Below, one piece after another: positions 4,174-50,528 of a stretch of DNA of 64,000 nt. The notes under the pieces were generated by a model. The model made no database searches, was not told where the DNA came from, and saw only the letters and a program-made list of their open reading frames with translations. How positions within the stretch are numbered: position 1 is the first letter of the stretch; every line of letters begins with the position of its first letter. Origin of the DNA: Baekduia alba (GTDB taxonomy: Bacteria > Actinomycetota > Thermoleophilia > Solirubrobacterales > Solirubrobacteraceae); assembly GCF_028416635.1 (NCBI RefSeq), contig NZ_CP114013.1:2728001-2792000 (forward strand), in the 5' to 3' direction. The translations under genes and the position numbers were made by a program.

Positions 4174-4208
4174 CCCGCGTGGGGTGACGCATCCTCACCC
4201 CACGCGGG
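4174..4208 (-). terminator. Perfect 14-bp hairpin between the SLC13 and M20 genes
   Basis: Arms CCCGCGTGGGGTGA (4174-4187) and TCACCCCACGCGGG (4195-4208) pair without mismatch around a 7-nt loop. It lies 15 nt upstream of the M20 start and 16 nt downstream of the SLC13 stop. There is no T-tract on either strand, so it may be a high-GC terminator, an attenuator or an RNA processing/stability element rather than a classical intrinsic terminator. Confidence 0.6.
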
Positions 4209-9809: not shown

Positions 9810-9826
9810 CCAGCTCGCGACAGGAC

Positions 9827-10648
9827 GTGCGCGCCGCCGCCAAGCGGCGGCGCGCACGGCGCGGCATGGCGATCTCGGCGCTGTCGTCGCTGGTCGTCAT
9901 CGGGGGCCTGGTCGCCGTGGTCGTGACGTCGCCCGGCTGGGCCGACGTCAAGGCCACGTACTTCGACTGGGGCGACTTCACCGACGCGTTCCCGGCCGTC
10001 CTGAGGGGCTTCTGGCTCGACGTCAAGCTGTTCGTGATCGTCGAGATCTGCGTGCTGATCGTCGGGTTGGTCGTGGCGCTCGTCCGCACCACGCGCTCGC
10101 CCGCGCTGTTCCCGCTGCGGCTGATGGCCGCGGTCTTCAGCGACGTCACCCGCGGCGTGCCGGTCGTGCTGTTCATCTACCTCGTCGGCTTCGGCGTCCT
10201 GGCGCTGGACATCGACGGGCTCCCGACCGACCCGCTCGTCCTCGGCGGAGCGGCGTTGACCTTGTCCTACTCGGGCTACGTCGCCGAGGTCTACCGCTCG
10301 GGGATCGACTCGGTCCATCCGAGCCAGCTCGCCGGCGGGCTCGCGCTGGGCCTGACCCGCGGGCAGGCGCTGCGGTTCGTCGTGCTGCCCCAAGCGGTCC
10401 GCCGCGTCATCCCGCCGCTGCTCAACGACTTCATCGCGCTGCAGAAGGACGTGGCGTTGATCTCGTTCCTGGGCCCGATGGAGGCGTTCCGCGTCGCGCA
10501 GATCGAGGCGGCGTCGAACTTCATCTACACGCCGCTGGTCGCCGCCGCGGTGCTGTACCTGTGCGTGACGATCCCGATGGCGCGGATCGTCGACCACCTG
10601 CAGGCGCGCAACCGCCAGGTCCGCGGCGTCGTGGAGGTGACCGGATGA
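9827..10648 (+). CDS. Amino acid ABC transporter permease (HisM/GlnP type)
   Basis: A BPD_transp_1 permease with an N-terminal basic stretch (AAAKRRRARRG), a first hydrophobic helix, and the His/Glu/Gln/Arg/opine permease core. The EAA-loop equivalent is LALGLTRGQALRFVVLPQAVRRVIPPLLN, the contact for the ATPase. The start is uncertain: GTG at 9827 (273 residues) is chosen because the ATG at 9770 would overlap the binding-protein gene by 40 nt and add Gly/Arg-rich residues unlike the family; ATG 9866 is a third option. The stop overlaps the ATPase start (ATGA). Confidence 0.88.
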   Translation: MRAAAKRRRARRGMAISALSSLVVIGGLVAVVVTSPGWADVKATYFDWGDFTDAFPAVLRGFWLDVKLFVIVEICVLIVGLVVALVRTTRSPALFPLRLMAAVFSDVTRGVPVVLFIYLVGFGVLALDIDGLPTDPLVLGGAALTLSYSGYVAEVYRSGIDSVHPSQLAGGLALGLTRGQALRFVVLPQAVRRVIPPLLNDFIALQKDVALISFLGPMEAFRVAQIEAASNFIYTPLVAAAVLYLCVTIPMARIVDHLQARNRQVRGVVEVTG

Positions 10649-47952: not shown

Positions 47953-47986
47953 GAACACGCTTGTCTCAAGTGTACGATGTTGTCTC
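47953..47986. promoter_or_regulatory. Operator region between the monooxygenase and TetR genes
   Basis: GAACA-CGCT-TGTCTC (47953-47967) matches the RAACA-N4-TGTCT palindrome also found at 53665 and 56796. An overlapping inverted repeat CTTG-TCT-CAAG (47960-47970) and a second TGTCTC half-site (47981-47986) are next to it. TACGAT (47973-47978) is a -10 element 9 nt before the TetR ATG. Both divergent genes could be repressed from here. Confidence 0.6.
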
Positions 47987-47987
47987 C

Positions 47988-48677
47988 ATGACCGTCCACG
48001 GCGACACGCACGCGCTCCGCGTCCTGCCCCGCGGACGCCACGCCGCGCCGCGCGCGGTCGTCGCCGAGTCCCAGCGCGAGCGGCTGCTGGTCGCGATGGC
48101 CGACGCGACCGCGGCCAAGGGCTACGCCAACGTCGCGGTCGCCGACGTGATCGAGCGGGCCGGCGTCTCGCGCCGGACGTTCTACGAGCACTTCACCAAC
48201 AAGGAGGACGCGTTCCTCGCCGCCTACGACGCGGGCGTCGCCGGGCTGCTGGACGCGATCGCCGAGGCGGAGGAGGCCGCGGCCGGGATCGATCCGAACG
48301 GCGGCCTGCTCGCGCGGGCCCGCGCGGGCACCGAGGTCTACCTCCAGCTGCTGGCCGACAACCCGGCCTTCGCGCGCACGTTCCTGATCGAGGTGCTCGG
48401 CGCGGGGCCGGCGGCGCTGGAGCGCCGTGACGCGGTCCACGCGCGGTTCGCGGCGCGCCTGGCCGACGGCTTCGACACGATCGCCGCCGGCGTCGACGGC
48501 GGGCTGCCCCGGCCGGCCGGCTACGTCTTCCGCGCCGCGGTCGGCGCGATCCACGAGCTGGTCCTCGACACGCTGCTCAAGCGCGGCGCCGGGGCGCTGC
48601 CCGAGCTGCTGGGCCCGGTCCTGGAGATCGAGCTGCGGCTGCTCGGCGCGCGGGTGCCGGAGCCGCCGCGCCCGTGA
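47988..48677 (+). CDS. TetR/AcrR family regulator divergent from the monooxygenase
   Basis: A 229-residue regulator. A basic N-terminal arm (LPRGRHAAPRAVVAESQRERLL) precedes the HTH (GYANVAVADVIERAGVSRRTFYEHFTNKEDAFLAAYDAG). The arm and HTH are clearly related to the TetR paralogues at 52927 and 53697. The ligand domain includes NPAFARTFLIEVLGAGPAALERRDAVHARFA. The ATG at 47988 is chosen for its position after the -10 element. It is the likely repressor of the monooxygenase and of itself through the RAACA-N4-TGTCT site. Confidence 0.88.
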   Translation: MTVHGDTHALRVLPRGRHAAPRAVVAESQRERLLVAMADATAAKGYANVAVADVIERAGVSRRTFYEHFTNKEDAFLAAYDAGVAGLLDAIAEAEEAAAGIDPNGGLLARARAGTEVYLQLLADNPAFARTFLIEVLGAGPAALERRDAVHARFAARLADGFDTIAAGVDGGLPRPAGYVFRAAVGAIHELVLDTLLKRGAGALPELLGPVLEIELRLLGARVPEPPRP

Positions 48678-48738: not shown

Positions 48739-49335
48739 ATGTCGTCCGCGACCACCACCACGAACACGCCGCTGCGCCGCCAGCTCGCCGGCGAGGAGGT
48801 CGGGCGCCGGCCCGCGGCGCTGGACGCGTTCCTGCTCGCCCGCCGCAAGTTCCTGGCCGGCGAGCGCGTCGACATGACGTCGCTGGCCGCCGAGCTGGGC
48901 GTCAACCGCGTCACGCTGTACCGCTGGGTCGGCTCGCGCGAGCAGCTGCTGGTCGAGGTCGTGTGGTCGCTGGCCCGCCGCACGCTCGACGACCTCGTCG
49001 CGGCCGACCGCGGCGGGCCGGGACGGCAGGTCCGGATCCTGATGGCCTTCCTCGAGGCGACGCTCGCCCACCCCGGCATGCAGCGTTGGCTGAGCGAGGA
49101 GGGCGAGTCGGCGATGCGCTTGCTCACCCGCCACGACACGGACTTCCAGCCGCGGCTGATCGCGGCGGTCGAGGAGCTCATCGACCCCGCCGACCCGGAT
49201 CGCCGCGAGGTCGCCTACGCGCTCGTCCGCGTGATCGAGTCCTACACCTACCTCGACCTCATCACGGGCGAGCGCCCCGAGGCGGGGCGGGCGGAGCCGA
49301 TCTTCCGCCGTCTGCTACAAACGCAGCGTTTGTAG
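48739..49335 (+). CDS. TetR-like regulator with QsdR-type ligand domain
   Basis: A 198-residue regulator with the HTH VDMTSLAAELGVNRVTLYRWVGSREQLLVEVVWSLARRTLDDL and a C-terminal region (VRILMAFLEATLAHPGMQRWLSEEGESAMRLLTRHDTDFQPRLIAAVEELI; YALVRVIESYTYLDLITGERPE) of the QsdR-like TetR subgroup. A TAGGTT -10 element lies 11 nt upstream of the ATG. The last codons form half of a perfect palindrome (49315-49335) in front of the HMG-CoA reductase gene, suggesting that this regulator controls that gene. Confidence 0.85.
   Translation: MSSATTTTNTPLRRQLAGEEVGRRPAALDAFLLARRKFLAGERVDMTSLAAELGVNRVTLYRWVGSREQLLVEVVWSLARRTLDDLVAADRGGPGRQVRILMAFLEATLAHPGMQRWLSEEGESAMRLLTRHDTDFQPRLIAAVEELIDPADPDRREVAYALVRVIESYTYLDLITGERPEAGRAEPIFRRLLQTQRL
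49315..49335. promoter_or_regulatory. Perfect palindrome at the TetR/HMG-CoA reductase junction
   Basis: CTACAAACGC (49315-49324) and GCGTTTGTAG (49326-49335) are exact reverse complements around a single A. The element covers the last seven codons of the TetR gene (including the stop) and lies 23 nt before the reductase start. It is far more A/T-rich than its surroundings. Size and symmetry suit a TetR operator. Confidence 0.65.
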
Positions 49336-49358
49336 CCCCGAGGAGAGGAGCCACGGCC

Positions 49359-50528
49359 ATGCGGACCCCTGTCCCGCGCGACCGCGAGAACGACTACACC
49401 CGCGACGCCGCCACGCTGCGCCGGGACTTCCTGGCCGAGCACAGCGGCGCGCCGCTGGAGCACGTCGGGCACTACTCGCTGGACCCGTCGTCGCTGCCGG
49501 GCAACATCGAGCACTTCACCGGCGTCGCGCAGGTGCCGATCGGGGTCGCCGGGCCGCTGCTCGTCAACGGCGAGCACGCCCAGGGCGAGTTCTACGTCCC
49601 GCTGGCGACGGCCGAGGGCACGCTGGTCGCCTCCTACAACCGCGGCATGAAGCTGCTGCACGAGGCCGGTGGCGTCACGACGACGATCACCGAGGACCAC
49701 ATGCAGCGCGCGCCGTCGTTCATCTTCCCCAGCGCGCGCGAGGCGCGGGCGTTCGGGGCGTGGCTGGTCGAGCGCTTCGACGACATCAAGGCGGTCGCGG
49801 AGTCGACGACGAGGTCCGGCCGGTTGAAGGACATCGAGCAGTACTCGGCGTCGCGGATCATCTACACGCGGTTCAACTACACGACGGGCGACGCGGCCGG
49901 CCAGAACCTCACCGGCAAGGCGACGCAGGCGGCGTGCAACTGGATCGTGGCGGAGTACCCCGGGATCGAGCAGTACTTCCTGGAGTCGAACTTCGCGACC
50001 GACAAGAAGACCTCGCAGGTGAACATGCTGCACACGCGCGGCAAGCGCGTGGTGGCCGAGGCGACGATCCCCGACGCGCTGCTGCGGTCGGTGATGAAGT
50101 CCTCGTCGGAGCTGATGTTCCGCGCGCGCCAGGTCTCCAACCTCGGCGGCTTCATGTCGGGCGTCAACAACAACGGCGCGCACTCGGCCAACGGCATCAC
50201 GGCGATGTTCATCGCCACCGGCCAGGACGTCGCCAACGTGGCGGAGTCCAGCTCGGCGTTCGTCCACGCCGAGCTGCGGCCCAACGGCGACTACTACTAC
50301 TCGATCACGATCCCGTCGCTGATCGTCGCGACCTACGGTGGCGGCACCGGGCTGGCGACCCAGCGCGAGTGCCTGGAGCTGCTCGGGTGCTACGGGGACG
50401 GCAAGGTCCGCAAGCTCGCCGAGATCGTGGCGGCGACCGTGCTGTGCGGCGAGCTGTCGCTCGGCTCGGCGATCGTGGCCGAGGAGTGGGTCACGGCCCA
50501 CGACGCCTACGGCCGCAACCGGCCTTAG
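49359..50528 (+). CDS. Hydroxymethylglutaryl-CoA reductase
   Basis: The 389-residue enzyme carries the HMGR motifs: VPIGVAGPLLVNG, catalytic Glu in ATAEGTLVASYNRG, DAAGQNLTGKATQAACNWI (D-x2-G-x-N), catalytic Lys in NFATDKKTSQVN, catalytic Asp in IATGQDVANVAES, ATYGGGTGLATQRECLELLG and a His near the C-terminus (TAHDAYGRNRP). It reduces HMG-CoA to mevalonate using NAD(P)H in the cytosol. GAGGAGAGGAG provides a strong ribosome site. No other mevalonate pathway gene is in the window, so the product's fate is open. The palindrome upstream suggests TetR control. Confidence 0.92.
   Translation: MRTPVPRDRENDYTRDAATLRRDFLAEHSGAPLEHVGHYSLDPSSLPGNIEHFTGVAQVPIGVAGPLLVNGEHAQGEFYVPLATAEGTLVASYNRGMKLLHEAGGVTTTITEDHMQRAPSFIFPSAREARAFGAWLVERFDDIKAVAESTTRSGRLKDIEQYSASRIIYTRFNYTTGDAAGQNLTGKATQAACNWIVAEYPGIEQYFLESNFATDKKTSQVNMLHTRGKRVVAEATIPDALLRSVMKSSSELMFRARQVSNLGGFMSGVNNNGAHSANGITAMFIATGQDVANVAESSSAFVHAELRPNGDYYYSITIPSLIVATYGGGTGLATQRECLELLGCYGDGKVRKLAEIVAATVLCGELSLGSAIVAEEWVTAHDAYGRNRP

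Follow-up and report, generated by a model that had tools for sequence, protein, structure and literature searches.

The window, by which we mean the whole 64,000-nucleotide stretch of the Baekduia alba genome (G000) that was analysed, carries a gene for a QsdR-type TetR-family regulator (hereafter TetR) followed on the same strand by the gene for an HMG-CoA reductase (HMGR), with a perfect inverted repeat at the end of the first gene and a probable ribosome-binding sequence ahead of the second:

48739..49335, + strand: QsdR-type TetR-family regulator, 198 amino acids (open reading frame; PF18598; 4ZA6 as best solved relative)
49314..49336, no strand: candidate operator, an 11-bp inverted repeat with a 1-bp centre (symmetry, rarity, counterparts at HMGR in G030 and G059)
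49340..49350, + strand: probable ribosome-binding sequence of HMGR, GAGGAGAGGAG (read directly; function presumed)
49359..50528, + strand: HMG-CoA reductase, 389 amino acids (PF00368, 421 bits; ATG 22 nt past the operator)

TetR consists of a helix-turn-helix (HTH) at approximately residues 45-75 and a PF18598 (TetR_C_36) C-terminal domain at residues 93-194; it belongs to this family with 79.9 bits against a gathering cut-off of 33.7, as presumably does QsdR itself, and it gave no match to the Pfam TetR_N model. The HTH resembles that of QsdR (phmmer E value of 3e-9 to 4ZA6 over residues 34-90), and its GVNRVTLYRW stretch is largely kept among relatives. In PMC6262395, PDB 4ZA6 is named as QsdR, and QsdR of Rhodococcus erythropolis is described as a lactone-responsive repressor of the qsd lactone-degradation operon. 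The tested neighbours of TetR were HMGR, another TetR, an FMO-type monooxygenase and an F420H2-dependent reductase; no lactonase or acyl-CoA ligase gene was found among them, so that the regulator is not taken to be QsdR itself.

The inverted repeat had been placed at 49315-49335 in the preliminary description; its letters are exactly those claimed, and the symmetry runs one base further each way, giving GCTACAAACGC-A-GCGTTTGTAGC at 49314-49336 (direct read), with arms of 11 bp and a centre of 1 bp. As described, it encodes the end of TetR, spanning codons 193-198 and the TAG stop, and the HMGR ATG begins 22 nt past its last base. Within the window, nothing else matches the palindrome sequence when up to 3 mismatches are allowed (shuffling predicts 0), and no other site reaches 11/12 or more to the dyad pattern; the counts of other window sites at 10/12 (6 and 4) are near the chance level of about 2 each. 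The pattern GCTACA-N11-TGTAGC occurs once in the 5.86-Mb G000 genome when up to one mismatch is allowed in the outer hexamers. The same pattern read backwards, used as a control, gave 47 matches in G000 and 45 in the nearest relative, G030, so the rarity is partly due to the letters of the motif.

The symmetry had also been called very unlikely by chance, which is an overstatement: in the window there are 9 palindromes whose arms reach at least 10 bp and whose centre is up to 8 bp, compared with a mean of 4.1 and a maximum of 9 in 60 first-order Markov sequences, and 2 with arms of at least 11 bp and a centre of 0-1 bp (Markov mean 0.4, maximum 2). Taken alone, the symmetry is weak evidence, and comparison across genomes is stronger; what sets this palindrome apart is its position, its A/T content in a window of 73% GC, and its conservation. 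Two longer perfect inverted repeats, with arms of 15 and 14 bp and centres of 3 and 7 nt, lie at 9826-9858 and 4174-4208, respectively, and are possible hairpins.

The last six codons of TetR include three that are rare in a reference of 40 window ORFs chosen by GC3, among which TetR was not included: CTA (4 of 1540 leucine codons), CAA (12 of 381 glutamine codons) and CGT (27 of 1098 arginine codons). Codons ending in A or T make up three of these six, versus 4 of the remaining 192 in the gene. The pattern fits selection acting on the DNA; G030 shares the CAA codon, so that the pattern is not all new.

G030 is 84-85% identical to the window in TetR and 92-93% in HMGR. There, the TetR tail reads LLQSQRA and is encoded without a palindrome, and approximately 0.77 kb separates the end of TetR from HMGR, a gap which holds an oppositely oriented ORF (read from the sequence). 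Exactly 22 nt ahead of the HMGR start codon stands GCTACATATCCCGGACTTGTAGC, which shares with the window dyad identical outer hexamers, the 23-bp length and the 22-nt distance, while the DNA to its left differs; a GAGGAG-type stretch likewise precedes HMGR (direct read). No second GCTACA-N11-TGTAGC site was found by a scan of the G030 genome at up to one mismatch. Absence of the palindrome from close orthologues with the same gene pair, which had been named as the result that would speak against an operator, was thus not observed: G030 keeps the site, although its symmetry is imperfect (9 of 11 pairs). The further proposal of an operator fixed inside coding sequence holds in the window genome only, since the G030 site is placed outside TetR, 729 bp past the aligned TetR region. 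Nor is the tail LLQTQRL, put forward as a feature to be checked for conservation, retained; relatives end in LLLR or LVR or differ.

Alignment of the window with both parts of the G030 locus bears on where the change occurred. Of the 30 bases flanking the window dyad on its left, 28 agree with the G030 TetR tail and 14 with the DNA ahead of the HMGR site of G030; of the last 7 dyad bases, all 7 agree with that HMGR site and 1 with the TetR tail. The left arm matches either source equally well, at 8 of 11 positions, which leaves more than one place for the exact junction. These matches lead us to infer a joining of the 3' end of TetR to the HMGR leader in the window genome, with the dyad kept or rebuilt across the join; the change may have been a loss in the window genome or a gain in G030. 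It looks as though an operator was kept at one promoter while the DNA under part of it passed from intergenic to coding. Separately, a GTAC-N6-GTAC element adjoins a different type of TetR in G080 (L099, 5190-5330) and in G030 (L003, 1440-1490); in G080 this other TetR forms a divergent pair with HMGR, and in G030 with the QsdR-type TetR. A turnover of regulators at the locus is possible.

A third counterpart was found at the HMGR start of G059, where GCTACACATCCGTCCGATGTTGC agrees with 11 of the 12 outer bases; the best background score, among 246 stretches of 370 bp, was 9. Its symmetry is poor (5 of 11 pairs), the G059 genome holds 3 sites at up to one mismatch, and the TetR relative of G059 (61-65% identity) lies on another contig, not beside HMGR. 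Because the G030 and G059 sites both stand at HMGR, the element can be assigned to the promoter of HMGR, and the fact that it overlaps codons of TetR regarded as local. In G080, whose genome is 68% complete, HMGR has no dyad and no TetR match was obtained at the thresholds used; G045, G008 and G071 gave neither an HMGR match nor a site at up to one mismatch. In the genus sample as a whole (7 genomes, two of them 65-68% complete), a site with at most one mismatch stands at HMGR in 3 of the 3 genomes that have both HMGR and a TetR of more than 60% identity, and in 0 of the 4 others. The dyad is thus near the start codon of its putative target and conserved in relatives, as an operator should be, within the genus only. 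Across the order, exact GCTACA-N11-TGTAGC is present in 3 of 232 genomes (G000, G030 and G087), and the 3-kb locus of the G087 site holds no TetR or HMGR match. HMGR matches occur in 37 of 146 genomes of the family; among the 30 HMGR loci listed, 27 have no site at 11/12 or better, and none stands at HMGR in G027 or G058, whose TetRs are 61-62% identical.

Related dyads occur at the promoters of TetR genes themselves. A scan of 17 orthologue or relative loci (34-67% identity by tblastn; G000 and G030 left out), from -150 to +40 of the extrapolated TetR start, compared without bias all 4096 hexamers at spacers of 4-16, or 53,248 motifs. By perfect matches, GCAACA-N12-TGTTGC ranked first (6 of 17 loci), and ranks 2-4 were shifted registers of the same motif; by matches of at least 10 it was sixth (7 of 17), mostly behind G+C-only hexamers, with GCTACA-N12 at rank 65 and GCTACA-N11 at rank 874 of the 53,248. 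Perfect copies of GCAACA-N12 stand at the TetR promoters of G120, G027, G002 (two), G058 (two), G008 and a Dactylosporangium, and N11 or weaker forms at those of G023, G212, G059, G225 and G224. Written as GCWACA-N11/12-TGTWGC and accepted at 10/12 or better, the motif gives a TetR-promoter site in 11 of the 17 loci; W at position 3 and the 12-bp spacer were adopted after inspection of the data, a choice of which the unbiased scan is independent. A first orthologue scan, made with a 16-base consensus from the window, had yielded nothing above 11/16 outside G000 and G030, and the family motif surfaced after position 3 was relaxed and other spacers were tried. Among 180 permutations of the a priori GCTACA-N11, itself included, 3 were as good at a threshold of 10 or more, 26 at 9 or more and 11 by the sum; the support that the orthologues lend to this a priori form is modest. 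The half-sites differ, being GCTACA with an 11-bp spacer at HMGR versus mainly GCAACA with a 12-bp spacer in the orthologues, and the two forms are connected by five of six shared half-site bases and by intermediates such as GCAACACGAGGCGCGAATGTAGC in G023. At a threshold of 10 no site was found for G159, and at 11 none for G224 or an Actinomadura locus; in G000 and G030, the TetR promoter itself is without a site of this kind. In G222, G223 and G194, sites lie before neighbouring genes, namely a divergent pair of GMC oxidoreductase and hydrolase-like genes, and a hydrolase-like gene (the hydrolase labels come from sub-threshold Pfam matches). Among 22 loci of more distant PF18598-type relatives, L022 alone has a promoter-placed site at 11/12 or better; a site in L016 lies at -619.

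Several smaller features of these loci deserve mention. L022, a G030 paralogue of 39% identity, carries GCTACACAAGAGTGCAAGTGTAGC in its promoter, 70 bp ahead of where TetR is extrapolated to start, combining the HMGR half-sites with a 12-bp spacer. Two perfect GCAACA-N12-TGTTGC copies, 49 bp apart, occupy the TetR promoter in G002 (L090, 3890-3962) and in G058 (L094, 4618-4690). The motif is also found between divergent hydrolase-like and GMC oxidoreductase genes in L089 (2043-2066) and L092 (6151-6174), a placement that suggests a wider regulon. The recognition region W[FY]GSRD (G120, G027, G002 and G058) goes with the 12-bp-spacer GCAACA form, and several relatives with WVGSR[ED]QLL have the 11-bp form; the Dactylosporangium breaks this pattern, pairing WVGTREQLL with a 12-bp spacer.

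We consider it very likely, judging from these sequence comparisons, that the palindrome is an operator at which a dimer of the adjacent QsdR-type TetR would repress HMGR transcription. Direct repression of HMGR by the upstream regulator, as suggested in the preliminary description, is well supported by G030, G059 and the dyads at TetR genes, but most HMGR loci are without a site. The binding, repression, effector and exact promoter that we infer would fit together as follows: each TetR monomer would contact one GCTACA/TGTAGC half-site, and the dimer, once bound, would occupy the region 23-45 nt ahead of the HMGR start codon, within which the promoter or transcription start would lie if HMGR has its own promoter; an effector, of lactone type by analogy with QsdR, would then release TetR from the operator. 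A scan for a consensus sigma-70 promoter at HMGR found none, and no -10 element could be assigned. That the dyad overlaps TetR codons would be secondary, the TetR 3' end simply abutting the HMGR leader in the window genome.

In the general TetR paradigm, a neighbouring gene is repressed through a dyad operator in its promoter. The present arrangement resembles it in the 23-bp dyad, the adjacent repressor gene and the neighbour as putative target, and differs in that the operator overlaps the stop codon of the repressor gene and that the promoter of this gene shows no recognisable site. The element is of an ordinary kind, a probable TetR operator, in an informative place. The likeness to QsdR is that both are local TetR-family repressors (putatively, here) with a similar HTH; QsdR, however, targets a lactonase/acyl-CoA ligase operon from an operator between divergent genes, whereas the predicted target here is HMGR and the operator lies where the regulator gene ends. 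PMC6262395 proposes two palindromes (IR1/IR2) in the QsdR target promoter as possible operators, and places the lactone pocket, by docking, at Arg96, Glu90, Phe106, Leu158, Tyr159, Pro161 and Leu162. In an insignificant phmmer stretch counted by hand, Tyr159 and Leu162 of QsdR correspond to Tyr171 and Leu174 of TetR, and Leu158 and Pro161 to Thr170 and Asp173, the rest being unaligned. In the open-licence literature searched, we found no operator motif for QsdR relatives and neither TetR control of a bacterial HMGR nor the present operator. GCAACA-N11/12-TGTTGC, with its GCTACA variant, is offered as a candidate motif for the QsdR-type subfamily.

The dyad could instead be a true HMGR operator that is read by another regulator, whether the TetR encoded at 47961-48677, a regulator elsewhere, or a PF18598 paralogue, which we regard as distinctly unlikely. 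Several TetR genes do lie nearby, but the one at 47961 is 33% identical to the TetR beside the QsdR-type gene in G030 and at most 40% identical to the other TetRs of the G030 stretch. A paralogue is suggested by L022 of G030, whose half-sites (GCTACA-N12-TGTAGC) are identical to those at HMGR; in G000, however, the one other relative of the QsdR-type TetR at an E value of up to 1e-10 (L027, 33%) has no site. In G080, HMGR and a different TetR form a divergent pair accompanied by another dyad-like element, and G027 and G058 have TetR together with an HMGR that lacks the site; yet all three genomes that show an HMGR dyad also have the QsdR-type TetR, and related TetRs bear similar dyads at their promoters.

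Very unlikely, in our estimate, is that the palindrome works as an RNA hairpin before the HMGR ribosome-binding sequence, by attenuation, translational control or as a terminator of TetR. The isolated 23-nt sites do fold (a 10-bp stem with a 3-nt loop at -12.1 kcal/mol and z -4.0 in the window; -6.7 kcal/mol and z -2.75 in G030), but in a context of 61-62 nt they fold no better than shuffles (z -0.94 and +1.05, respectively), and an internal loop interrupts the G030 stem. No T run follows the palindrome and no terminator was predicted, and the related dyads, with their unrelated centres of 11-12 bp and their positions mostly upstream of TetR genes, behave like DNA sites. Least credible of all is that the palindrome arose by chance where a coding sequence ends; although perfect palindromes of similar size are not rare in the window, this reading is disfavoured by the outer hexamers, length and distance that G030 keeps despite different DNA to the left, by the G059 variant, by the genome-wide uniqueness and by the rare codons.

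What HMGR, the putative target of TetR, does in the cell can be approached from the rest of the genome. HMG-CoA synthase (PF08540) and mevalonate-diphosphate decarboxylase (TIGR01240) gave 0 matches in G000, which is 96% complete, compared with matches in 4 and 8, respectively, of 14 control genomes; G000 is thus not counted among genomes with the biosynthetic mevalonate pathway. NF004283 (PRK05692), which we take to be HMG-CoA lyase, has two matches in G000 above its cut-off of 246, at 333 and 256 bits, the second of which is uncertain since the model rings weakly in 14 of 14 controls. HMGR itself fits TIGR00533 (NADPH-type) at 367 bits versus 38 bits for TIGR00532 ('degradative'), both below cut-off. 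Given the lack of matches to both of these biosynthetic enzymes, HMGR may be inducible and serve catabolism. The present analysis proposes a regulator, together with a DNA motif, for a reductase seemingly outside any mevalonate biosynthesis pathway. A degradative mevalonate operon, mvaAB, is known in Pseudomonas mevalonii; the two cases share a regulated HMGR (putatively, here) and a genome in which no mevalonate biosynthesis genes were found, and differ in that the window HMGR fits the NADPH-type model better and has no HMG-CoA lyase adjacent.

A broader and tentative reading, rather unlikely when taken as a whole, is that a lactone-sensing QsdR-type repressor controls an HMGR that stands apart from any biosynthetic mevalonate pathway and works toward HMG-CoA in the catabolism of mevalonate/mevalonolactone (or a related hydroxy-lactone), with lactone induction; a wider regulon of PGAP1-like hydrolase, GMC oxidoreductase and zinc alcohol dehydrogenase would form an uncharacterised lactone/ester module of the order, with GCAACA-N11/12-TGTTGC as its operator, and the operator at HMGR would have been preserved as its left part turned from intergenic DNA into repressor coding sequence. 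Mevalonolactone as the effector of TetR is speculation. In G059 and G224, HMGR is followed by a PGAP1-like hydrolase, which in G120 and G002 is divergent from TetR with GCAACA-N12 sites between the two. In G224 the HMGR end, the hydrolase, an alcohol dehydrogenase and TetR all lie within 4.6 kb, and the grouping of genes around HMGR and TetR suggests an inducible catabolic module.
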